A stretch of 64,000 nucleotides of DNA, taken from assembly GCA_950295325.1 (NCBI GenBank), contig OX485803.1, positions 57,427,554 to 57,491,553 of the forward strand. Reading direction: 5' to 3'. The notes beneath the pieces were generated by a model, which was not told the origin of the DNA, searched no databases, and saw only the letters and a program-made list of their open reading frames with translations. Position 1 is the first letter of the stretch. Each line of letters begins with the position of its first letter. The position numbers and the translations under genes were made by a program. Positions 1 to 44,671 of the stretch are shown one piece after another. The DNA comes from Polytrichum commune. Its lineage: Eukaryota; Streptophyta; Polytrichopsida; Polytrichales; Polytrichaceae.

Positions 1-696
1 AACCTAGAGCCCCATCCACTATCTAAAATACATCCCAACCTAAGCTCAAAAAGCACACCATACCCTAGCTCCAAACCCAACCTCCACTTGAAAAACAAAC
101 TATGTCAAAACTACGAAATGACCTTGACCTACCATCTTCACCACAAACCAAACCCTATCACAACCAAATGGAAACCAAGCACAACTACAAAACACATACT
201 CCAAGACAACTCCCATACACACCTAACAACTAAATACAACACCCACCAAAACCACAAACCGTTCCCCAAAAACCACCCCTACCCAAAACTAAATATACAT
301 ATTAAACAAAAAGCCAACCCGAAAAACAAAGCAACCTCAACATACCAACCTCACCTCTCAACAAATGCCAAAGCACACCTACAAAACAAATGCTCAAAAA
401 ATAAACCCTACCCTAGCTTCGAACACCATAACAAAATCAAACACCTATTAAGCCCTCATATAAAATACCAACCCCACCCAAAAAACACAATGGCCTCGGC
501 CTACCGGCCTCGCCACACAAAGAATAACAAATACCACTTCATAAATAATTGGAAACCTAACTCAATAACAAGCCAAAAATCTACAAATAATACGAAACCA
601 CACTTCTCACCCATACAAATAGAAAAAACCATACCCGCTATACCTAACCTATTTTCCACAACCAAATGTACAATCACAATATATCTAAAAACAAAC

Positions 697-792
697 ATGA
701 AAAACCCCAACATAATCCACTTCCACGGATACTACTTCACTAACAAACTAGAATTACTAAAATGCGGAGACATAGAATCCAACCCCGGACCA
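697..792 (+). other. 2A-like ribosome-skipping peptide
   Basis: The peptide ends in the residues GDIESNPGP at 766-792, a full match to the 2A consensus D-[VI]-E-x-N-P-G-P, preceded by a leucine-rich run (KLELLK) as in known 2As. In characterised 2A peptides the ribosome fails to form the last Gly-Pro bond (here between codons 787-789 and 790-792) and goes on translating. The next codon after the Pro is ATG. Placement close to an ATG (697) resembles the N-terminal 2A of L1Tc. The match is seen directly; activity is inferred. Confidence 0.85.
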
Positions 793-1437
793 ATGCCTAA
801 CATCCTACATATGCATCCTGCTACACACAGAAAGAGAGCCAAGATATACTTCATTCCAAACACTATCAAACTACAACCTGAATACCAACACATAGCAAAT
901 ACATTTGCTCACATACTAAGGAATACACACCCTCTACACCATCAAGCAATAATTACCCACCCACATCTACACCAATACATCCAAACACAAAGGCAATCAC
1001 CACCAACCCATTTGCTATATGCTATAGTCATCACCATCCACCCCTCAATAGACACATGCAATAGCATACTAGCCCACCCCCAAAACTACCACTTTAACGA
1101 CATATGGACCAACACACTAATTATTAGACTAGCTAACCTCACCAACCCCCCCGAAAGACACATACTGACACCGCACCCCTACACAATATTCATAGAAAAC
1201 AATCAACATATAATACTCCCCCAAAACTCAATACACACCAAAATATACGATTTCATCCACAACCAAGCCACCACACCCACACCAAGCACCCTCAAGAAAG
1301 AATTCCCCTTCCTTCCAAACCAGTTAATAACCGAAACACTTAGATGTTTAGAAAATATAAGCGAATACTCACACCCACCCCCACTCCTGGCCGCTCCCAC
1401 GCCAATCACAAGAATGAACTCTAACACCGAGCACGAA

Positions 1438-2210
1438 ACAAGCATAATAACTTGGAATGCGTCATCGCTCAACACATCACTACCAAACTTACAAGACTTA
1501 ATCAACAACTCTCTAAATAACACAGCAATCATTCATATCCAAGAAACCAAACTCACTGCAAACAAATCTACTAAATATATACAAAACTTATTTCCGGAAT
1601 TCAAACTCACTTTCAACAACACACACGCACTCACGAGGTGCATCCAACAAAGAATGCCCTATACCCCCGGAAGAGGCGGCCTACTCACACTTATCCATCA
1701 CAAATATGCATTCCCAGGAAATGTCACCAAAATTCCCACACCAGCAAACATCTCCCCGTACCTACAAGTAATAAAAATAAACAACCATCCACTAACACCT
1801 TGGCTAATTATACACATGTATATGCCTATGCACCTAGAAGACACATGTCTTATCCCACACCTTAAGAATGAAATCACTAAACAAATCACTACACACCCCA
1901 ATCACATATACACACTGTGCGGTGACTTTAACAGAGATATTGCACTTAGAGGTAGACAAAATAACAACACTACTACCCCCCCACAAGAAGAGGACTTCCA
2001 ATGGAAAAATTTTACCACATCTCTCGACTTAGAATATATCACTACCAACACTAGTATCTCCAGACAAGGTGGCTACAACTACACATCCACAAGCCTAATA
2101 GATGGTTTCTACATTCACTCCCTTGACAACAGCAAATTTACCTCCACTACAAACACAAACATGAATCTAAATTCAGATCACTATCCAGTCACATTACACA
2201 TCCCACACAA
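1438..2210 (+). other. APE-type endonuclease domain of the LINE
   Basis: Exonuclease-endonuclease-phosphatase fold motifs occur in order: TWNASSL (catalytic Asn region), HIQETKL (catalytic Glu), GDFNRDI (Asp/Asn pair) and SDHYPVTL (terminal Asp-His). In this family the domain nicks target DNA to prime reverse transcription. All the key residues are present, so this domain itself looks intact. Confidence 0.9.
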
Positions 2211-3059
2211 CACACTTATAGCTAGACCTCCGCCCTCTACACACACCACACCAACTAGGATACTGAACCCGATACCACCGGAAAACCTAGAAAACTTTAA
2301 CATAACATTCTTCGAAGAAAATTCCACCCAACTTAAAGAACTTACCACACTATTAGAAGACCACCAACACTTAACACCTGATCAATGGCAAAATGCCTGC
2401 ACATCATTGGAATACATTATAAACAAAATCTCAAAAACAATTGAAAAAACCTGCAAAGCAGACCCTCTACCCAACCTCACAAACAGAACATCACAACAAG
2501 GTGGTTTTTTACCACGCAAACTAGCTAGAGAATGGAAAAGACACCTCAACACATATCACCTCATCAGGAAAACCATTTACATTGTACAAAATGACCCAAG
2601 CTGGCAAGTACACCCCATCCTAAACGATATCCGAAACCACCAACACGTCAACATTCCGCACCCACCTACTACAACAACATCTCATGTCGAATGGATTGAC
2701 ACCATAGCAATTATCGCAAAAACGGCAAATAAAGAAGCTAGAAAAATTACCACAAAATACACCAGAGACTGCATCCTAAAAGCCGTATCAAAATACCGTC
2801 AAATGTATGAAAAAAGCCCCAAGAAAATAAATCGGAAAGTCTTCAAGAACACTGAAACCTCACCTCTTGACTCCATCATTGATAGACAAAACAACATATT
2901 AACCAACCCTGAAGACATTGCTTTAGAGATTTACGCACAACAATCCATCAGTAACCGCCCAACAGTCCCCACATGTCACCATCAAAATACACATCTAATT
3001 CACTGTACATGTGGAGTAAGGCAATACCCTTGGCACGACTTAGATGGGTACACAATCGA

Positions 3060-4200
3060 CATACGAGGAGAACCCCAAATCCCCTTGCACACATACTTTG
3101 ATCAAGAAACATACGACTTCTGTCTTAAAAACCTAAGTAATAATAAAGTCCCAGGCCCAGACAAAATTTCCAACTCAATTCTAAAAAATATGCCTCCACG
3201 CTTTCACAAAATATTGTTTCTATTCTTTAAACACTGCTATAAACAAAAACAAATCCCAGCATCATGGAAAACTAGTCTAACAGTTTTACTATATAAAAAA
3301 GGTAACCCATCACAACTAACAATCACAGACCTATTGCACTAGCTAACACTATATATAAACTATACACAAGCACATTAACCTCTATCCTATCAGCATACGG
3401 AGAAAAATACCAAATACTACACGATAGTCAAGAAGGATTCAGAGCAGAAAGAAGCACCTCCAGACAAATCCAAATACTAATTGCAGCGCTTGAAGACGTC
3501 AGACTCACAAACCAAGATATATACATTCTTTACATTGACTTCAAAAACGCCTTTGGCTCCATTGACCACGCCAGACTATTAGCCATAATGAAAGACCTGG
3601 GTTATCCCAATGACTCCATAAACCTCATAGGAAACATATACTCACAATCATCAACCATATTTACCGGAGAACACTTCGGAAAAACTCTACCAATCCACAT
3701 CCAAAGAGGTACAATACAAGGCGATACCCTTAGCCCATATCTATTTATCATATTCTTGGAACCCCTAATTAGATGGCTGCAACAAGAAAATAATGGATAT
3801 ACCTTCGGTACGTCCAGAGTGAAAATCTCATCAGCAGCATATGCAGATGATCTTGCAGCAATCGCCAACAAACTAGAAGCATTACAAACACAATTAAACA
3901 AACTAGACAAATTCTGTGAATGGGCAGGAATGGACCTAGGTATACCAAAATGTGCAGTGACTGGATGTCCAAACATATCTAAACTTAACCCCACAACCTT
4001 CAAAGCCCTAATCCAATCCACTAACATAAATTATAGAAACCAACCTATACCAGTCCTAAACCAACATGAACCCTATACATACTTAGGAATAAATCTTGCA
4101 CCATCACTCAAATGGAAAACACAAATAAATACCACCACAGCTAAAGTAATCAAACAATGTCAAGCCCTCGTAGCTTGCCCAGCTACTATGAAACAAAAAA
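3060..4200 (+). other. Reverse transcriptase domain of the LINE
   Basis: Seen in order: VPGPDKISNSIL (finger/palm entry), a frameshift near 3,310-3,326, RPIALANTIYK, EGFRAERST, DFKNAFGSIDH, GTIQGDTLSPYLF, then YADD at 3,840-3,851 (the catalytic Asp pair) and TYLGINL. These are the conserved blocks of non-LTR retrotransposon RTs. The catalytic residues are retained; only the reading frame is damaged. Confidence 0.93.
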
Positions 4201-6344
4201 TCAACATGGCAGACACAGTCATACGTGCTGGAATAACATATAGTTTTTATGCAGTACCATACTCCATACCAGCCATAAAAAAAACTAGACAAAAAAATCA
4301 TCGCACTCCATAAAATAATATGTGGAATACCTAAATGCACATCTAATATTGCCACGCAACTCCCCCACAACCTATTTGGAATTGAAGCATTTTCATTACA
4401 AAATGCCTATCTAAGGTGCATTGGAGAACAATTACAAAATGCCCTCAATGACAAAGGCAGAATTGGGAGAATATATACCGGTCTAGTACAATTCATACTC
4501 GCCACACATGGGGGCTCTCAAGAAATCACTTGCATTAAATACCACCACTGTGTTAGATCACCCATCACTAGAACACTGTTTCTGCTAAAACATAAAGCCG
4601 GAGTCCATTTAAAAAGCACAATAAATAACTTTCTACTAACCCCATCCTCACTTGAAACAGCATGGATGCAAGAAGCACAAATGCTACATGGCCTAAACCC
4701 CAACACCTCACTTAAACTACTACACAAATTACTTATACATAACATAACCACACTAGACCAAATTACCTTGCCTAATGGTACCACTCTGATGAACAAGGAC
4801 GAATTCAAAATCTACCACTCCACTCCTTCTAAACTTATCCAAAGCGCACTTAACATAGCTAATGAACTATTCTGCCACCCCCCCTGCAATCAATGCCCCC
4901 TACCCTGCCAACAACACCACCCACCAAGATCCCTCAAAAACAAATATATAATAAGAAATCACAACATCCTACCTCACACACCGACCGCCCCCGTACACCC
5001 CCTCATCCCCCATCTACCTCCTCCCCCCAACAACATGCTTAAAGACCCCCGACAATTCCCCATACACAAAATACTCGATCACAAACAAAAACAATCTAAC
5101 GACCACAATGGAATAAAAAGAACAGTTACGTCATATATGTGTCAATGGACCACAACAAATAACAACACATATAATAAATGGCGAACCCAAAGGGACCTAT
5201 ACCCCTACTGTGAAGCCAACATATGCAACCACAACACAAACCTGCTTAACCAATATTACACAGAAAGACAACACAATCATTTTTCAAACATCATTAACGC
5301 TTACTTCAGCACGGAACAACACCGAGATACAAGATACGTCACACCATCCACAATAATTCCGCTAGCACATATCTCTATTAGTGAATGCAACCCAGAAAAC
5401 GACATTGAAACAAATTCTGATACTATCCAAACACAATTCGATGTCGCCCACATATACGAAGACAATGGAAGGCATCTCATCACCATCCCGAAAGCTAGAC
5501 TAACATGGCTATGGAAACAATACCAATTGGCAAAAAATACCACACATGGTCTAGAACCACCTACCCAATCATTCGAAACTGAAATTGTCTGGCTATACCA
5601 AAGATACAAATACCGTATCCCAAAGAACGATCCACTCAAAAGAGCCCAATATACAATACCAACTCAAATACTGGATCTACTAATTACAACATTCAATATT
5701 ACCCACTCATACTTTTCATCCCCAGTTACATGTCCTACACAATTCACCCAATTCTACTCACCATTTTCACGAGACATAATATTTGGATCCTTAGGAAAAG
5801 TGTTTGACTATAAATGGCAAGGAATTGGATACGCACATCCGCACATCCGCACAACTCAACAGACCTACAACAAACCATACACTGGGCACGCATGGCGGCC
5901 CAAAATGACCCTTACACAATCACTATAATTATATCCCCAGACACTGACTGGTACCAAAACTGGAACCCACACACAGGCCCATTCCCAGACACACATGTCA
6001 TTGCCCATTTTGCTGCTGACACAATCACATACGAAGAACCAACAATACCCCCCGAACTCAATACTACAAGGAAAGAACCATCTACCATGCAAATATTCTG
6101 TATCCATCACCAAAATAATAACATAGGTACCTACGAATAAATGAAGCTAATACACGACACAGCAAATAACCTCCAAATATTACAAAGCCACACTCAAATT
6201 GCACCACCCACCCCTCCGAACATCACCGTTAACCCTAGTAAAAAATGGGCTCAATCAAACTACCCAAACACACCCCTATACAATAAAAACCCCACCCCAC
6301 AACTCCCAAACTACCAAACCAACTTACCACTAAAATTCCACCCC

Positions 6345-6790
6345 CAATTCAGCTACTACACAGATGGATCCTTTATAAAACCCAAAGAAATTGCCCCTGG
6401 AGTATGGAGAAGAGAAAGAGCTGGATATGGTATCTATAGCCCCAAAGGCTTCAATATCGCCAAAAGACTCCATGGGCATCAAAACATACTACGTGCAGAA
6501 ATGATGGCTATACACAAAACACTAAGAATCATCAATACACAATTCCCTAATGAACCCGCATTTATATTCACAGACAGTCTAAACATACTATATCTACTCA
6601 ACACACAAATTAAACACCCCACTCTCCATAATAGTCACCCAGACCAAACCACACTCAACTCCATGGTAAAAATCCTCCAAGACCGTACACAGCCTATCAC
6701 ACTATACAAAGTCCGAGCACACGTCAACATTGACGGTAATGAAAAAGCGGATAAACTAGCAAAAGACGGGTTAGAATTAGAACACAGAAT
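6345..6790 (+). other. RNase H domain of the LINE
   Basis: RNase HI motifs are visible: YYTDGSF (first Asp), RAEMMAI (Glu), FIFTDSL (second Asp) and HVNIDGNEKADKLAK (last His/Asp block). In LINEs of the I, R1, Tad and Dualen groups this domain removes RNA from the RNA:cDNA hybrid. It lies downstream of the in-frame stop at 6,138-6,140. Confidence 0.92.
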
Positions 6791-7139
6791 CGCCATACAC
6801 CCATACGAACATGCCCACGCCACCCCATACTATTATCAAAAGGACGTCTGGGCCTCAATGGAAGAAGTCCCAGACAAAGGTCCAGTAAGATTCTTAGAAA
6901 AACAAATTAAAAAATATGACAGGGAAACCAATATAGCAGTCATGGCCACACAAACCCCCAACACGTGTAAATGGACAGAAAATATAGACATTGACAAAGA
7001 ACTGTCCAACGAATTCTGGACAAATCCCTTAATCACAGACAAACAAAAATCGTGCCTTATTAAATTCCGTACAGGAACATACATGGGTAATGCTAGAAAA
7101 CAAATGTTTTTCGGTCACCAGAGGTACCCCTCTATCACG

Positions 7140-7770
7140 TGTCCCATATGCAATTCAAACGAACCAGACACTTGGCTACATGTACTACTGAAATGTAACC
7201 AACAACATATACACTCACTACGAATTAAAAGACATAACAAAGCAGTTGGAGAAATTAGGAAGCTCCTAATCTCGTCCGAAAAATCCCGATGTTTTACCCT
7301 CATGAATGCCGGTACCTTCAATAATAATCCCCAAGAAAATATTGTCCCCAATTGGCTACTCCCCTGCGCATGTAACACACAAAGATGTCATTGCAATGCA
7401 AGGTTTCGCCCTGACATACTATGCGTCAAAGGATTACCATATCAAAAGGACCCTCCCATCGACGTTGACCCTAACCTCACCATACAATTTATTGAATTCA
7501 CATATTGTAACGACAGGTTTTCCCCAGAAACTATTGAAGCAAAAAACAACAAATACAAACCACTGATTGACAGTATCGCTTCCAGAGGATGGAAAATCGA
7601 ACCACTTATTGTCCTCACAGCTGGGGCCCGAGCTACGGCCCACATCCCATCCATAAAAATACTAGAAGAAAATCTCAAAATACCCATGGTTACCATCAAA
7701 AATACCTTTAAAAACATTAATACTATTGCAATACAATATGCCATGTCCATCCTCCTACATAAGAGGAGAC
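7140..7770 (+). other. Zinc motif plus restriction-like endonuclease (RLE) domain of the LINE
   Basis: A C-x2-C-x9-H-x4-C motif at 7,140-7,196 is followed by RFRPDILCV at about 7,400, then FIEFTYCNDR, then AKNNKY. The arrangement zinc knuckle - R/K-PD - acidic-x-T - K-x-x-K-Y is that of the PD-(D/E)xK endonuclease of R2-type LINEs. The segment from the acidic motif to the C terminus is strongly conserved with the truncated copy at 44,104-44,671 (for example IQFIEFTYCNDRFS is identical in both), which supports a real functional domain. The PD-to-acidic spacing (about 26 residues) is longer than in R2, so the catalytic assignment is an inference. Confidence 0.72.
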
Positions 7771-7869
7771 TTGAAAACCACCAACCGCTCCCCCAAAACT
7801 TAGACCCTCCATAAAACCCAAAAACTTGTATAATATCTTATATAATACCTAGTATCTACTTACAGCTCA

Positions 7870-8040
7870 GAATGAGGGACGGGTGCCGGTTGGTTGGTAC
7901 AAATTTCATGCCTTTTATTCACTTGCGCACCAAGTCATGTGTTACATTTTAGACGATCATACGGACTCAACGGGAATCGAACCCGGAACGTCTTAACTCA
8001 AACATCCTCCCACAACCAACCGAGGAATCATGACTTGGCG
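7870..8040 (-). repeat. tRNA-derived SINE-like sequence inside the LINE 3' UTR, antisense
   Basis: On the minus strand a Pol III B box (GGTTCGATTCC, plus-strand 7,973-7,983) follows an A-box-like CCTCGGTTGGTTGTGGGA about 45 bases upstream, the spacing of a tRNA-derived SINE head. The truncated LINE copy 2 lacks this segment while sharing the flanking 3' UTR, so it looks like an insertion. A 10-bp inverted repeat, CCAAGTCATG (7,930-7,939) and CATGACTTGG (8,029-8,038), brackets the tRNA-like part. No clear target-site duplication was found. Confidence 0.6.
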
Positions 8041-8089
8041 TTCACTCTCATTACAAAAACACTAATTATCCTTAAAAGGCATGCACCTT

Positions 8090-8289
8090 CGTGGGCCATA
8101 ATCGGCCCATGTTATTTGTTTCTCGGTTACTGTTTCTCGGTTACTATAGTGTCCATCCTCGAAAGAGGAGAGTAGTTCTGTCCCAGCTTCCCCATGTCCT
8201 GTGGGCATCGGGTTGTTGGCATTACGAACGGACACTCTATTCACGCCGGCCCCTAAAAGGGACCGGAGTTTCTATCTATCTATCTAGAT
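8090..8289 (+). other. Conserved LINE 3' UTR with terminal hairpin and (TCTA)n tail
   Basis: This segment aligns with the reverse complement of 44,104-44,300, including ACGAACGGACACTCTATTCAC versus ACGAACAAACACTTTATTCAC. A stem-loop at 8,246-8,266 (CCGGCCCCT, loop AAA, AGGGACCGG) precedes GAGTTTC and the tail at 8,270-8,288. In LINEs the 3' end is the site recognised by the RT for target-primed reverse transcription. Confidence 0.8.
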
Positions 8290-8933
8290 ATGGGCTCAAT
8301 AAGGTTAGTACCAAGTGGTATTTGCATCAACTCAAGTCTTTTCCTTACTAGTTCTTTCACATGGTTATGGAGGAGAGGGGTGTTGGGTAGTTGAAATTCA
8401 ATAGCAACATGGAAGTCCAAAGAGAGACATGTATTGGGATCGATTGGGATATCATATGGAATTTGTGTTAGGTTGAGGTGTTGTCCAAGGACACCATCCT
8501 CCCTCTTACCTGGGTAATAGATTTGGGGTATCCTTGGGAAGGATATTGTGACCCCCTCCATCTCTTCCGCTTCCTTCCTTGGTACACCCCTAAGTACCCT
8601 ATCTTCAATGGATTCACCATCAAAGAGCTCTTCCAACCCCTCTTCCATAGCCAATTTCTCCATGTTAGTGAAACCATACCAAAAAATTTGACGGAACCTT
8701 CGTTCCGGGAAAATGGAATTTACCTGTGTGGCTTGTGGGCGTCGTTGTGGGGTTTGGTGTAGAGACTTGTTCGGTGTTGTCTTCTCCCGGGTCCTCTTGG
8801 TGCCTATTTCCTTCGAAGTTTGATTCTCCTTTGTCTTCTCCGCTAAGAGCCGCATGAGGTTTTGTGTGGGTGAGTCTACCTCCATGTTGTCATCATCACC
8901 AAAAACGGTTCGGAATGTGGAGGGTGATGCCAT
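8280..8933 (-). CDS. Hypothetical 217-aa ORF, interrupted by the LINE tail
   Basis: An ATG-initiated minus-strand ORF starts at 8,933 and runs into the (TCTA)n tail of the LINE, where its last codons and stop lie, so the native C terminus has probably been lost to the insertion. The N-terminal third is charged and low in complexity (KRTREKTTPNKS); the C-terminal part is more ordered, with many Pro and Ile/Leu residues. I see no zinc knuckle, RT motif or other known domain. A CAG/AGC-rich leader and a 61-bp tandem array lie upstream, which would fit ORF1/gag of another retroelement with a monomer-type promoter, but that is a guess. It could also be a truncated host gene. Confidence 0.4.
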   Translation of the reverse strand: MASPSTFRTVFGDDDNMEVDSPTQNLMRLLAEKTKENQTSKEIGTKRTREKTTPNKSLHQTPQRRPQATQVNSIFPERRFRQIFWYGFTNMEKLAMEEGLEELFDGESIEDRVLRGVPRKEAEEMEGVTISFPRIPQIYYPGKREDGVLGQHLNLTQIPYDIPIDPNTCLSLDFHVAIEFQLPNTPLLHNHVKELVRKRLELMQIPLGTNLIEPISR

Positions 8934-9640
8934 GTTTGAATTGTTGTGTCCGAGTTCTCCTACAACCTTGGTTCTCCTCCAGTAGCTCCTCGCCCGCAGC
9001 TCCCTCTAAATTTCCAGCAGCTCCTTGCCAACGGGTCTCGGTGTTGAAGTGTCTTTTGCAGAACTTGTAGTGTAGCACCTTGTTTAGAAAAACTTCTGGT
9101 TCGAAGCAGTCAGTAGCTTAGCCTGTTCTTCGTCCGCAACAACCCCTGGCAATAATTCCCCAGTAGTAGGCAGCAATTTTTTCTGATCAGCAGTCTTCCT
9201 TTGCGGCAGCAGGTGGCGTCTCCTCTCGGTAACAAGCAACACCAATCAGCTTTCCCCGGGCAGCAATAGTCTTCTCCCTCGGCAGCAGGCGGTGTTTCTC
9301 CCGGGTAGCAGCAGTCAGTTTTTGTTTGTAGTTATCAGTGCCGGTGGGCAGTAGTGGGTGGCGGTAGAATTGTTACTAGTCTGGGTGTTTAGCTAAAACA
9401 CCGGTCGTGGGGTGTTCACAGGGTCCTAATGATCACAGGGTGTTTCAACTTCGATCGTGATGCAGCAACCGAATCCACTTGCCTTCGATATCTAGCTTCG
9501 GTGTATGGCTTCGGTGTGGCAGTAGGAGCCTTAGTTGTCGGTAGATGAGGTTTGGTGCGGCCAGTTCTTTGATGTTCGTGGAGCTCTGCGATTTAATCGC
9601 AGAGTACTCAGAGTGCCCAGATCACAAAGTGCCCAGGTTG
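8934..9640. other. Non-coding leader, CAG/CTC-rich
   Basis: No gene seen. The stretch is rich in GCAGCAG/CAGCAAT and TCCTC motifs, recurring as imperfect short repeats, and leads into the 61-bp tandem array. Confidence 0.5.
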
Positions 9641-10312
9641 ATCGCAGAGTGTCCAGATCGCCGGAAGCGATCTCAAATTGATCACCGATTACTCCTGAAG
9701 TGAACTCAGAGTGCCAGATCACCGGAAGCGATCTCAGATTGATCGCCAATTACTCCTGGAGTGAACTCAGAGTGCCAGATCGCCGAAAGCGATCTCAGAT
9801 TGATTGCCGATTACTCCTGGAGTGAACTCAGAGTGCCAGATCGCCGAAAGCGGTCTCAGATTGATCGCCGATTACTCCTGGGGTGAACTCAGATCGCCGA
9901 TTACTCCTGGAGTGAACTTTAGAGTGCCAGATCGCCAAAAGCGATCTCAGATTGATCGCCGATTACTCCTGGAGTGAACTCAGAGCGCCAGATCGCCGGA
10001 AGCGATCTCAGATTGATCGCCAATTACTCCTGGAGTGAACTCAGAGCGCCATATCGCCGAAAGCGATCCCAGATTGATTGCCGATTACTCCTGGAGTGAA
10101 CTCAGAGTGCCGGATCGCCGAAAGCGGTCTCAAATTGATCGCCGATTACTCCTGGGGTGAACTCAGAGTGCCAGATCGCCGAAAGTGATCTCAGATTGAT
10201 CGCCTATTACTCCTGGAGTGAACTCAGAGTGCTAGATTGCCGAAAGCGATCTCAGATTGATCGCCGATTACTCCTGGGGTGAACTCAGAGTGCCAGATCG
10301 CCGGAGTTTCAC
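9640..10312. repeat. 61-bp tandem repeat array, about 11 copies
   Basis: The unit has a GATCGCCGAAAGCGATC core, itself a near-palindrome with GATC at both ends, followed by TCAGATTGATCGCC, GATTACTCCTGGAGTGAAC and TCAGAGTGCCA. I counted 61 bases for one full unit. Copies differ by a few substitutions, and some units are shortened (around 9,885-9,920). The array is head-to-tail and has no spacers, so it is a minisatellite and not a CRISPR. Confidence 0.9.
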
Positions 10313-10778
10313 GGAGTGTCCGATCTGCTCTCACTATCTTCTTCAGCAGCTACTTTGGTAGTTATTTGGTGTACTCTCTCGGCAGCGACGTACTTCTTCA
10401 GCATTGACTTTGATCGTTGTGGGGTGCTGTGTATTTGTAGAGTGCTCGGTGAGGATGAGCTCGCGTACGCTTCGGCACTTGTAGTTCAAGTATCTGAAGT
10501 GTGGTGGTGGACGGTGTTCATAGGTCCCGAATGAAGAGCGCTCCTGGTGCGAGCCTCCAGCTGCTTTCAGAATTAGGTCACCGCGTTTCCAACTTTTCCA
10601 GGAGCGGCTACATCTTCATTCTTCTTGGGTCCATGTACACTTTCCACTATCACAACATCGCTTCCTCGAACTCCCTAGTGCGTCCGGCACCGAGCTCTCT
10701 CACCGGGCGCAGAGCTTTCACGCTTCGTTCATCGGCCCTCTATCAGATTCTCTTAATTGGACACATATTCTTCTTAAT
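10313..10778. other. No gene recognised
   Basis: Short frames are open here but none resembles a known protein. The base composition resembles the leader at 8.9-9.6 kb, so it may belong to the same element as the tandem array. Confidence 0.4.
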
Positions 10779-20977: not shown

Positions 20978-21050
20978 CGCCACCCCAGGGGCTCGAAGCC
21001 TGGACCACAAGGTTAAGAGCCTTGCGCTCTACCAACTGAGCTAGGACGGC
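20978..21050 (-). tRNA. trnK-CUU: tRNA-Lys (CUU), possibly decayed
   Basis: The reverse complement folds as a cloverleaf: acceptor GCCGTCC with GGGTGGC (two G-U pairs), the D-arm A box TAGCTCAGTTGG, the anticodon loop CTCTTAA giving anticodon CTT, and a T loop TTCGAGC. It is very close to the usual plant tRNA-Lys through the anticodon arm. The closing T-stem pair, normally G53-C61, is C opposite C, which breaks the invariant B-box G. A run of five T lies about 25 bases downstream and could stop Pol III. No intron. The broken pair makes a pseudo-tRNA or a SINE head possible. Confidence 0.7.
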
Positions 21051-36434: not shown

Positions 36435-39400
36435 TTATGTGACTGCAGGATGGGGGCTATTTGTGGGCATGCCATGCTGTAAATTCTGATATACAAGAAA
36501 GGTTGAGGTGCCGCAATAACGGGCAGCAAAGGCCTGACCATCTGGAGTGGGCTGTGAAAATGCACACTGTGATGTCTTCAGGGTCACTCCTAAGCAGAAT
36601 GTCTTCCTGCAAACACAGGAGCTCATATTAAATCTCTGCCATCATATCTAACAGTTGATGAACCTCAAGGCCTGTTTAATCATGGAGCAAGATACTATTT
36701 GCACACTTATACTTTTTTTGAAACACACTAGGATGTAATATTCACTTAATTAGCACATTTTAGAATTAGAGGCATGCGGATGCATAAACCCAGGACAAGC
36801 CAATTGCATCTGTCAACATTTCAAATGACTACAAGAGAATCTTTCAGAAGTACTTAAAGCATATTTATGTGGAACACAATGAAGGAAGAAAGAAACACAA
36901 AAGGGCATTACCACTACAAATTGCCTGACAGCAATATTGAGAACCATGATCTGAAATCCCTCACATATGGGATATACATCGAAATTACTATGCAAATTAA
37001 TCAAGACTGGGCAATGATTGCTTACCGCATGGCATCCAGAAGATATGTAGCAACACCTTTCCTGCGCTCAGAGCGAGACACCCATATTCCTCGCACACCA
37101 CAGACTGCTGGGACCCCTGTCTTGCTACACAAAATGGCTCGACCCAGATCACCATGATCACTGGTGTGTTTTTTTTTGCGAGTCACAACCTCCCTAGTAA
37201 ATTTCCAATCACCAAAATTGAGCCAAGTAGAAGGCTTCAGTCTTTCTCTATTTGTATGAACTAAACTGGAACTACTATCACTAAGTGTGTCATACTTAGC
37301 TGGCAGATCATTAGGTTGAGATAAAACAGACGGAACAACCTTCAGGTCTGTATTAAGTAGGACAGAGGCACTTTTAGGTACTAATTGTGTAATTACAGTC
37401 TCCCTCAAAGAAGATGTTATAGATACAAGTTCTGGATTCTGGGAAGGATATGTTCGATTACAATTAGCTCTGGATTCTATGGACTTTCTATAAAACCTTT
37501 CACTAGCAGGAAATTCCTCAAGCCCTTGGCGGCAAGGGTCATCAACACTACTGCTTGATGTTCTTTGACATTCTGGTGCTGATGGTTGCAAAATGGTGTC
37601 TTCATTCTTAGAAGGTACTATAGGAAAAGCACACGTGATCTGTTCAGCAACGATGCATCCTACTATTTTCTTGGAGCCTGAGATGAAAAGATACACCTGT
37701 TGCAAGGAACCAACGCTTCTTTAATAACATGTCAGGTATAAAGCATCAAGTTTGTGCAATAGACGGAGATTCCAAGGAAATCTTCAAGTTTTAGGTGAGG
37801 CACAATAGGAACTTCTTGATCAGGGCCAAAGTAGCAGTATCATAAATTCAGAAAAGGGTGAAAAGTTCCAAAATAGGATTGCCTACTTTGCAGTGCTTCT
37901 GCCACAACCAGCCTTCAGACAATCCAAGCTCCTGCTCCATAACTTTCACCACTTCCTGGACCTTTCTGAGGTGGCTGTTGGAGTCCCCAGGCAGCACACA
38001 TATCACCCGGTCATCCTTGCCAGGAATCCTTAGTGCCACCCTTTCATGATCCCATCCCTGCAAAAACCCATGATTCCTTTTAGAGGCGGCTTTAACACTT
38101 AACCTAAAAATGGGATGGGAATCACAAGTTATTGCAAGAGTCCAATACAAAATACGTTGCCTAGGTATGCTACGCTCTCAACCTGTGGGGATTCCAACTG
38201 ACAAAAACCTGTCTAAAAAATAAATTGCTAGGCGTGTGCGTAGTGGAACTGACATTATCCACTACACTGTAGTACCATATTAGCAACATGTGAAATAAAA
38301 CAATTACTCACATGTCACACAAATGAAGCTAACACATGTTACACAAATGTTGGTTGGATTAAAAATGTTGACTCCGCACACAGGCAGTAGAGGTGTGAAC
38401 CTTGAAGTGAATGCCCTTAAGTTGACTCCGATGGAATGAAGTGTGAAGCTTCTCGTCACTTTCAAGACCACGAGCATAGACAAGGCCACAGGATGAGCAT
38501 GTTGTATGAGAAAAATCTGCTTGGCCAAGATCCAAGAAATACTGTCCACGCACACGCTTTGTGGGGCCTGGGGCTACTGTCCTTTTGGGAAATGGTACCT
38601 TCCTCACTACTTGTGATGAAGAACTCTTGAAGAAAGGAGCAATTCTATCGAGTTTTTCTGGTGTCAGCAACTCCAACGATGAGATTGATGGCACGTCTGC
38701 CTCAGAAGCCACCTCCTCATACTGCTTCTCCTCAACATTTGCAGCTGCATTTGGGTCAGACAATTTCCTGAAGAGGGAAAAAAAGAAATTGCAAATGTGA
38801 GGAATTGACAGTGCACAGTTCATTCACATGTTGCAGCCACAATCCACTTTAGAGATATTTTGGCAGCATATCAGAAAAAAATCTACACAAACAGCAGCAC
38901 ATTGGCACCATACATCATAGTGGCTTCACATCATGAGTACAAGGGCAGCACCTCTTACTTGATAGCAATAATTGGATACCTTTGATAAATCAACAGATAT
39001 ATCAAACTTTGCAAAGTCACTTCGTGTCAAATTTTGAATACGTTTCAACAAATATCCAGAACCTCGTTTTAAGTTTTTATTCAAGGTGAGTGCTGCAGAC
39101 TCAAAAAAAAACAAAAGTGGATGGTACTCCCACAAAATGTGGGTGCCACAGGGGATGCCACATTCAGTTGACATGTAGCTAATATGAAGACTAGCTTAGC
39201 TTATCATATATTTCACTTGTACTGCTTGAGTTTCAACCATGTTCTGTTGCTAGACTTCAAGCACCCTAACAACTGAAGCTGCTTCTGCGAACACTAAACT
39301 CAAAACTGTAATTGAAGCTGTCATGGCGGGCAAAGCAAATACTTGGTATTTGACTGGCACTCCGTCATTTAGACTGGGTGTCCATCCATTCTGAGGAAAG

Positions 39401-44103: not shown

Positions 44104-44671
44104 AGAAGAAGAAGAACTCCAGTCCCTCTCAGGGGCCGGAGTGAATAAAGTGTTTGTTCGTAGGACATCCGTGGCCAAACCCCAGGGCATTGGCGTTGGA
44201 TGTAATACTACTTCACCCGTTAAGGGAGTAGACACTATTTTAGTAACTGGTGATGTTACCAGTAAACCAAAAGGCGGGGTGTGCAGTAATTTAGGTGGGA
44301 TTTTGTAAACCGGTGATGGATTGTCTGTTTTCTATCCGTCGTTTATGGATCAATATGGTGTGTGCGTATTGTATGGCGATAATATTTATTTGTTTGAATG
44401 TACTTCTTATTTGTGATGTGGGAAGTTTAAGCTTCGTGGCTAGTTCATTCATCGAGGGGATGTGAGTGGTAGGTCTGGCACCTAATGCTAATACAATAAG
44501 TGGGGCTACGTTCCAACCGCGTGCAATTATATCGTTGATGAGTGGTTGATATTTTGTTATTTTCCTGGCCGTTGTTTCAGTAGAGAATCGATCATTACAG
44601 TATGTGAATTCAATGAATTGTATAGTAGTTACCGGTGTAGGTGCGTCTGGTGGAGGGGAGTTGTATGGGTG
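44104..44671 (-). mobile_element. LINE copy 2, 5'-truncated, 13-bp target-site duplication
   Basis: The reverse complement encodes the C-terminal RLE part of the same polyprotein as 1-8,289 (TIQFIEFTYCNDRFS, KYQPLINDIIARGW, PLIVLALGAR, HIPSMNELATKLKLP, AIQYAHTILIHKRRIENRQ), then a collinear 3' UTR, the terminal hairpin at 44,119-44,139, and a (TTC)n tail. The direct repeat GGGATAACTTGGA stands on both sides (44,091-44,103 and 44,672-44,684). The frame is open across the retained part. 568 bases remain, truncated within the RLE domain. Confidence 0.95.

Follow-up and report, generated by a model that had tools for sequence, protein, structure and literature searches.

Dualen/RandI elements are long interspersed nuclear elements (LINEs) in which an apurinic/apyrimidinic-type endonuclease (APE) and a restriction-like endonuclease (RLE) occur together, and Dualen has been used to argue that an APE replaced the RLE in the origin of APE LINEs (PMC4640811). 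The group was listed for green algae only as of 2015 (PMC4438587), and LINE/Dualen repeats are reported from relatives of Chlamydomonas (PMC8226300) and from cryptophytes (PMC12747079). Two Physcomitrella LINEs are mentioned in a passage that leaves their domains unstated (PMC7466625), and our literature search, conducted largely at title level and with Repbase outside its range, returned no title on Dualen/RandI in land plants. Here we analyse a 64,000-nt stretch of DNA (the window; contig C1, 57427554-57491553) from an assembly of 407.8 Mb in 64 contigs, seven of them large. The window very probably carries a decayed copy of a recently active retrotransposon without long terminal repeats, with Dualen/RandI anatomy and residing in a land-plant (probably moss) genome; the assignment to Dualen/RandI is by domain anatomy, the reverse transcriptase (RT) having been compared with R2 and L1 only. 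A sequence-only reading of this DNA had proposed a dual-endonuclease, Dualen-type LINE, and our analysis bears this out, because the C-terminal domain is homologous to the R2 RLE, residues of catalytic type are conserved, and both APE and RLE are under purifying selection.

Layout of the window copy

Within the window the copy covers positions 1-8286 on the forward strand and has three frameshifts and one stop, its second open reading frame (ORF2) being read in frame 1 (1-3339), frame 3 (3306-4310), frame 1 (4279-5925) and frame 3 (5814-6137, an extra stop at 6138-6140, then 6141-7811). The initial 8 kb of the window show a strong A/C skew. The features are:

1..3339, + strand: first part of ORF2 (frame 1), with a basic low-complexity region, a 2A-like motif, a conserved Pfam-less part, the APE and the start of the RT; 83% identical to residues 139-1128 of the ORF2 of a relative, L002
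766..792, + strand: 2A-like (StopGo) motif GDIESNPGP, read by eye and positioned through a gapless match to a relative
1450..2247, + strand: APE endonuclease (QETK, GDFN, SDHY), by sequence match to relatives
3070..4295, + strand: RT in two frames (frameshift near 3306-3339), PF00078 E 2.5e-30
5266..6221, + strand: PCIF1-like domain in two frames (Pfam stretch 5545-5823), PF12237 44.0 bits against a cut-off of 31.1, E 2.3e-11
6351..6773, + strand: RNase H, PF00075 E 4.7e-13, RNase H1 in the PDB E 9.4e-5
7140..7196, + strand: CCHC knuckle CX2CX9HX4C, invariant in 8 of 8 aligned sequences
7230..7811, + strand: predicted R2-type RLE, with RHN at 7230-7238, PD at 7410-7415, E at 7494-7496 and KxxKY at 7542-7556
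7815..8286, + strand: 3′ untranslated region, ending in GGGACCGGAGTTT(CTAT)n, by comparison of 3′ junctions
8280..8933, - strand: ORF1 fragment of a different copy, facing the other way and located at the 3′ end of the window copy; by eye near-same protein as the ORF1 start in L001
44315..44668, - strand: second RLE fragment, 60% identical to the window RLE over 118 residues

The sequence-only reading had placed the element at 1438-7770, which proved too short: ORF2 stays open past the left edge of the window, ORF1 lies upstream and the 3′ end is near 8286. It had also put the APE, RT, RNase H and a C-terminal zinc/PD-(D/E)xK-like domain in one polyprotein. Their order on the forward strand stands; the single open frame does not, at least in the window, and is found as a 2625-codon polyprotein in L002, L003 and L004. 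The PCIF1-like domain, the 2A-like motif, ORF1, the exact 3′ ends, the target-site duplications and a short interspersed nuclear element (SINE) partner all lay beyond that reading.

In the window copy itself the RT, like the PCIF1-like domain, scores above its Pfam cut-off. RNase H (PF00075) is above cut-off in the window, L002, L037 and L038, and the APE is above cut-off in L010, L012 and L037 and below it in L002. Pfam returned nothing at E<=1 for the APE stretch of the window copy, which was recognised through relatives (88% identical to L002). ORF1, upstream of ORF2, has 607 codons (L001 1210-3030), shares 39% identity with the ORF1 of another copy over 527 columns and has no Pfam match at E<=1.

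Intact copies and family structure

Searching the genome with the C-terminal 357 residues gave 114 scored matches of 5793 candidates, at 89-100% identity (the window's own included), spread over all seven large contigs and one small contig; the element is therefore not a chance reading. Three loci (L002, L003 and L004) each hold an intact single ORF2 of 2625 codons, with 30, 49 and 51 differences of 7878 nt between pairs, and such near-identity suggests that this two-endonuclease LINE family moved recently. The order along ORF2 is a basic low-complexity region, the 2A-like motif, a conserved part outside Pfam, APE, RT, PCIF1-like domain, RNase H, CCHC knuckle and RLE.

More distant families (L010, L011 and L012) share 42-47% identity along ORF2, and L037 and L038 are further distant family loci. 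The subfamily of the second RLE fragment at 44315-44668 includes L018 and L019 and has 150 relatives scored of 3622 candidates. Open frames in the fetched stretches reach 2372 (L010), 2169 (L018), 2746 (L037) and 2890 codons (L038). The sequence-only reading had held the C-terminus to be conserved with a second copy whose place it left unstated, probably this fragment, and the identity listed above, together with the selection on the RLE, agrees with it.

A comparison over 601-7811 with L014, L013 and L002 shows the window copy's subfamily to be mosaic, nearer L013 up to ~4.2 kb and nearer L002 beyond, as if LINE subfamilies had recombined or switched templates. Recombination particular to the window copy was ruled out: in full bins L014 matches it at 95.8-98.5% identity, hence the mosaic is a subfamily trait. 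Peptide-pattern scans of viral and genome contig collections for relatives elsewhere gave matches, none of them confirmed; these collections include few eukaryotes, and absence is not implied.

Host genome

The genome contains 58 matches to the light-harvesting complex (LHC) family. The LHCII protein of L005 scored 461 bits against PDB entry 8htu, which we take to be a moss entry, 459 against 7xqp and 431 against 5zji; a 620-aa chain (9vfj) that matched LHCII with 512 bits over two stretches was set aside. The second and third of these entries are from the moss Physcomitrium patens and from maize, respectively (PMC12589708). We take the host of the LINE to be a land plant, probably a moss, as judged from one protein, LHCII. 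The proposal that this dual-endonuclease LINE lies outside green algae is upheld by these scores, the nearest structures being from land plants and the best from moss, and by copies on all seven large contigs; this distribution also rules out algal contamination. Fourteen LHCII genes of equal score lie within 95 kb elsewhere in the genome (C5:1751760-1846160).

The C-terminal domain as a predicted R2-type endonuclease

Five blocks (CX2CX9HX4C, RHNKAV, PDILC, EFTYC and KxxKY) are invariant in all eight aligned family sequences, down to about 46% identity; L037, outside this alignment, reads EFTYT in place of EFTYC. The published LINE layout has a knuckle CX2-3CX7-8HX4C, a PD-(D/E) motif and, as catalytic K, the first K of KX2KY (PMC5678591), and the residues named for the RLE of silkworm R2 (R2Bm) are D996, D1009 and K1026 (PMC10499050). 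Aligning the family C-terminus with three R2 RLEs by hhalign gave a score of 37.95 (P 5.1e-5, probability 67%) and paired the RHN, PD and KxxKY of the family with those of R2; the controls reached 23.5 at most in 200 column shuffles, 17.8 with the reversed profile and 14.6 at most with the PCIF1-like, RT and APE alignments. When a family profile was run against 177,635 distinct PDB sequences, two R2Bm sequences were the only ones at E<=10. The family hidden Markov model (HMM) scored R2Bm at 14.0 bits (best of 2000 shuffles, 9.1), and its 12 best rows included none of the five ORFs taken from four L1-type loci of the host. These comparisons support a relationship of the C-terminus to the R2 RLE, of the PD-(D/E)xK type.

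Several observations weigh against the reading of the element as a two-endonuclease LINE of this kind. The conserved E is left unpaired with R2 D1009 by hhalign, their match being made by eye. The PDB match to R2Bm has E 0.47, alone not significant, and is limited to the CCHC-RHN part. The knuckle spacing, X9, is one above the X7-8 published for LINEs, and an AlphaFold2 model of the RLE from two window sequences was unusable (predicted local distance difference test score 39.9). Outside the RLE, L038 lacks an APE Pfam match at E<=0.01, its alignable sequence being the same domain, and the RT of R2Bm scores no better than that of L1 (86 bits each).

Ratios of nonsynonymous to synonymous change (dN/dS, Nei-Gojobori) were taken for four near pairs. 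For the RLE they are 0.090 (L002-L013), 0.099 (L002-window), 0.082 (L013-window) and 0.102 (L010-L012); for the same pairs the APE gives 0.075-0.224 and the RT 0.058-0.135. Across all seven RLE pairs dN/dS is 0.08-0.27 and APE values reach up to 0.35, pairs with dS above about 1 being saturated. By this measure both the APE and the RLE are under purifying selection, and the low values in near pairs indicate that both nucleases have been kept.

PCIF1-like domain and 2A-like motif

Between the RT and RNase H sits a domain matching PF12237, above cut-off in the window, L002, L012, L037 and L038 and just under it in L010 (30.7 bits against 31.1). A genome search put 150 of 150 scored matches (697 candidates) above cut-off. 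No PF12237 match was found in 14 control genomes, a weak control since the genomes reached there by PF00078 (three) and PF00504 (one) are prokaryotes. The family profile of the domain matched nothing in the PDB at E<=10 except human PCIF1 (E 0.59). The catalytic motif of PCIF1 is NPPF; at its place in the family, set by eye, the loci read HPHN, HPPN, HPHT, HPKD or FPTD, so that NPPF is kept in 0 of 11, and a regular-expression search of L037-L040 found none. Methyl transfer by this domain is unlikely, given the degenerate motif. Its dN/dS in near pairs (0.08-0.21) indicates that the domain is still used. Our literature search found no paper joining PCIF1 with retrotransposons.

The window and most loci match the 2A/StopGo motif D(V/I)ExNPGP, reading GDIExNPGP, with H, Q or K in place of the E in some; all 9 loci scanned elsewhere contain NPGP (eight by search expression, L038 by eye). 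In L010, L012 and L018 the motif and its surrounding sequence occur two or three times upstream of the APE. The StopGo consensus is stated in PMC12846837, a study in which no natural use by plant viruses was found.

3′ ends, target sites and a SINE partner

All 18 of the 3′ junctions compared end in GGGACCGGAGTTT(CTAT)n or one base shorter, with variable n and unrelated flanks, which rules out R2-like site-specific insertion. The 22-base 3′ end occurs exactly 848 times in the genome (415 forward, 433 reverse), and the reversed pattern 0 times. Repeats other than poly(A) are likewise found at the 3′ ends of 8 of 8 RandI families (PMC3747384).

We sampled 40 insertion sites in two sets of 20, all on C1 and among the first listed 3′ ends; we chose them by eye so as to stay clear of RLE copies, and hence they lean towards short copies. 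Target-site duplications of at least 8 bp flank 17 of 20 in the first set and 19 of 20 in the second (36 of 40, counting that of L048, which is of low complexity); for the first set, a match of this length arose in 0-11 of 200 trials per site once the flanks were shuffled. The copy formed by L003 with L015, about 12 kb long, has a 12-bp duplication. Over these 37 sites together the duplications measure 8-17 bp (mode 12, mostly 10-14 bp). They are preceded by G in 22 cases, A in 11, T in 3 and C in 1, and begin with T in 36 of 37, a T that may partly be common to the tail. The second set alone gives a preceding G or A in 17 of 19 and a first T in 19 of 19. This pattern agrees with target-primed reverse transcription from a WR^T nick of low specificity.

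At 24 of the 40 sampled places the insertion is a SINE of ~375 bp (279-372 bp matched; for example L045 1153-1530), in which a common 5′ part precedes the LINE end, the last 145 nt being shared with the LINE. Ten copies were compared, and nine of them match the tenth at 94-99% identity, with sequences resembling box A and box B. ARAGORN found no tRNA in one SINE copy and Rfam nothing at E<=0.01 in four SINE loci; a tRNA origin is a guess. SINEX families of Chlamydomonas likewise have tails in common with RandI (PMC3747384).

A possible division of labour

The LINE would move by target-primed reverse transcription, its 3′ end also being recognised on the SINE. The APE would make the first, weakly specific nick (WR^T, top strand), and the RLE beside the CCHC knuckle would cut the second strand or resolve the junction. 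We lean towards the APE as first nicker because most RLE LINEs are site-specific (PMC4640811), and favour this division of labour tentatively. The 2A motif would separate a basic N-terminal protein from the enzyme part of ORF2, and the PCIF1-like domain, its catalytic motif seemingly degenerate, would bind nucleic acid, either the 5′ end of the RNA or some other. In its fullest form the proposal is of a land-plant LINE lineage in which two working endonucleases have split tasks, a non-catalytic domain derived from a cap methyltransferase reads the element's own capped RNA 5′ end for full-length insertion and a 2A array frees an RNA-binding protein; that all of this holds together we consider unlikely.

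The RLE might instead make the first nick, as in R2, leaving the APE as helper or second-strand enzyme, an arrangement that we regard as doubtful while giving it serious weight. The APE of L1 prefers TTTT/AA, and the WR^T preference here is unlike it. The CCHC knuckle and the RLE are also neighbours at the C-terminus, an arrangement seen in the R2 structure (PMC10499050). Against this stand the lack of R2-like site specificity, with flanks differing in 18 of 18, and the layout, since the R2 RLE directly follows the RT linker whereas a PCIF1-like domain and RNase H intervene in the LINE described here.

Affinities of the reverse transcriptase

The family RT profile gives 136, 121 and 120 bits with R2 sequences and 86 with each of silkworm R2Bm and human L1, whereas the RT of L033, an L1-type element of the host, gives 130 bits to L1 and 67 to R2. 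With 86 bits to L1 against 136 to R2, the family does not have the nearest-to-L1 RT of an L1 LINE. An R2 LINE would have a single ribosomal DNA (rDNA) site and an RLE only; here the flanks are unrelated and an APE is present. A 17-row RT tree, unrooted for the family and confined to the family, R2 and host L1, separates these as three groups (ten family rows, support 100/99; R2, 91/90; host L1, 100/99), with three long branches flagged. Excluded from it were an 87-aa piece from the window, shorter than 240 aa, and ORFs in which no RT was matched. One of the L1-type loci, L035, has a long additional C-terminal part past zf-RVT.

An RT from an APE-only clade, such as an I-like one with RNase H, could have been joined separately by an RLE-like domain, making the resemblance to Dualen convergent. 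LINEs of the I group do carry RNase H (PMC4640811), 2A motifs upstream of the APE are known in APE LINEs, to go by a reference title, and I and Tad lie outside our tree; yet the profile scores (136 and 121 bits to R2 against 86 to L1) and the 3′ repeats other than A, as in RandI, make such an origin improbable. Very improbable, to our mind, is a C-terminal domain that descends from an RLE and now binds DNA without cutting, in a plain APE LINE: many APE LINEs do have target-site duplications and no fixed insertion site, as here, cutting by the RLE is a prediction from sequence and hhalign leaves the conserved E unaligned to D1009, but all 8 aligned sequences, down to about 46% identity, keep PD, E and KxxKY unchanged, and dN/dS in near pairs is 0.08-0.10.

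Neighbouring features

A tandem repeat with 61-base spacing lies just downstream of the LINE (9592-10416). The sole Rfam match within the window is a tRNA gene (20978-21050, - strand). Pieces of an ESCO1/2-type cohesin acetyltransferase gene (37022-37705 and 38359-38823, - strand; PF13880 E 8.4e-10) are accompanied by an exon that by eye resembles a zinc finger.

Comparison with known systems

A recently active, multi-copy dual-endonuclease family in a land plant would offer a second system for asking which strand each nuclease cuts and why neither has been lost, and an element kind known mainly from green algae could become testable in a land plant. The SINE tail in common with the LINE and the clear target-site duplications provide a readout of mobilisation, and the PCIF1-like domain would tie LINE biology to cap modification. 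With the cap-adenosine methyltransferase PCIF1 the element shares PF12237 above cut-off in the window, human PCIF1 being the PDB match of the domain; it differs in not keeping NPPF and in housing the domain inside a retrotransposon polyprotein.

Like the host L1 LINEs (L033-L036), the family has an APE and an RT; unlike them it carries PF12237, which L033 and L035 lack, and an RLE, for which they gave no match among the 12 best rows, and the RT of L033 is the nearer to L1. With R2 LINEs it shares the CCHC knuckle and a predicted RLE with PD and KxxKY, and its RT scores highest against R2, whereas R2 has no APE and a single 28S rDNA site and the present family has an APE and varied flanks. The closest likeness in anatomy is to Dualen/RandI of Chlamydomonas and relatives, where APE, RT, RNase H and RLE likewise occur in a single element (PMC4640811, PMC3636483), 3′ repeats are other than A and SINEs carry the LINE tail (PMC3747384). 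From these our family differs in its land-plant host and in its PCIF1-like domain and 2A motif, neither of which is mentioned in the parts of the Dualen descriptions available to us.

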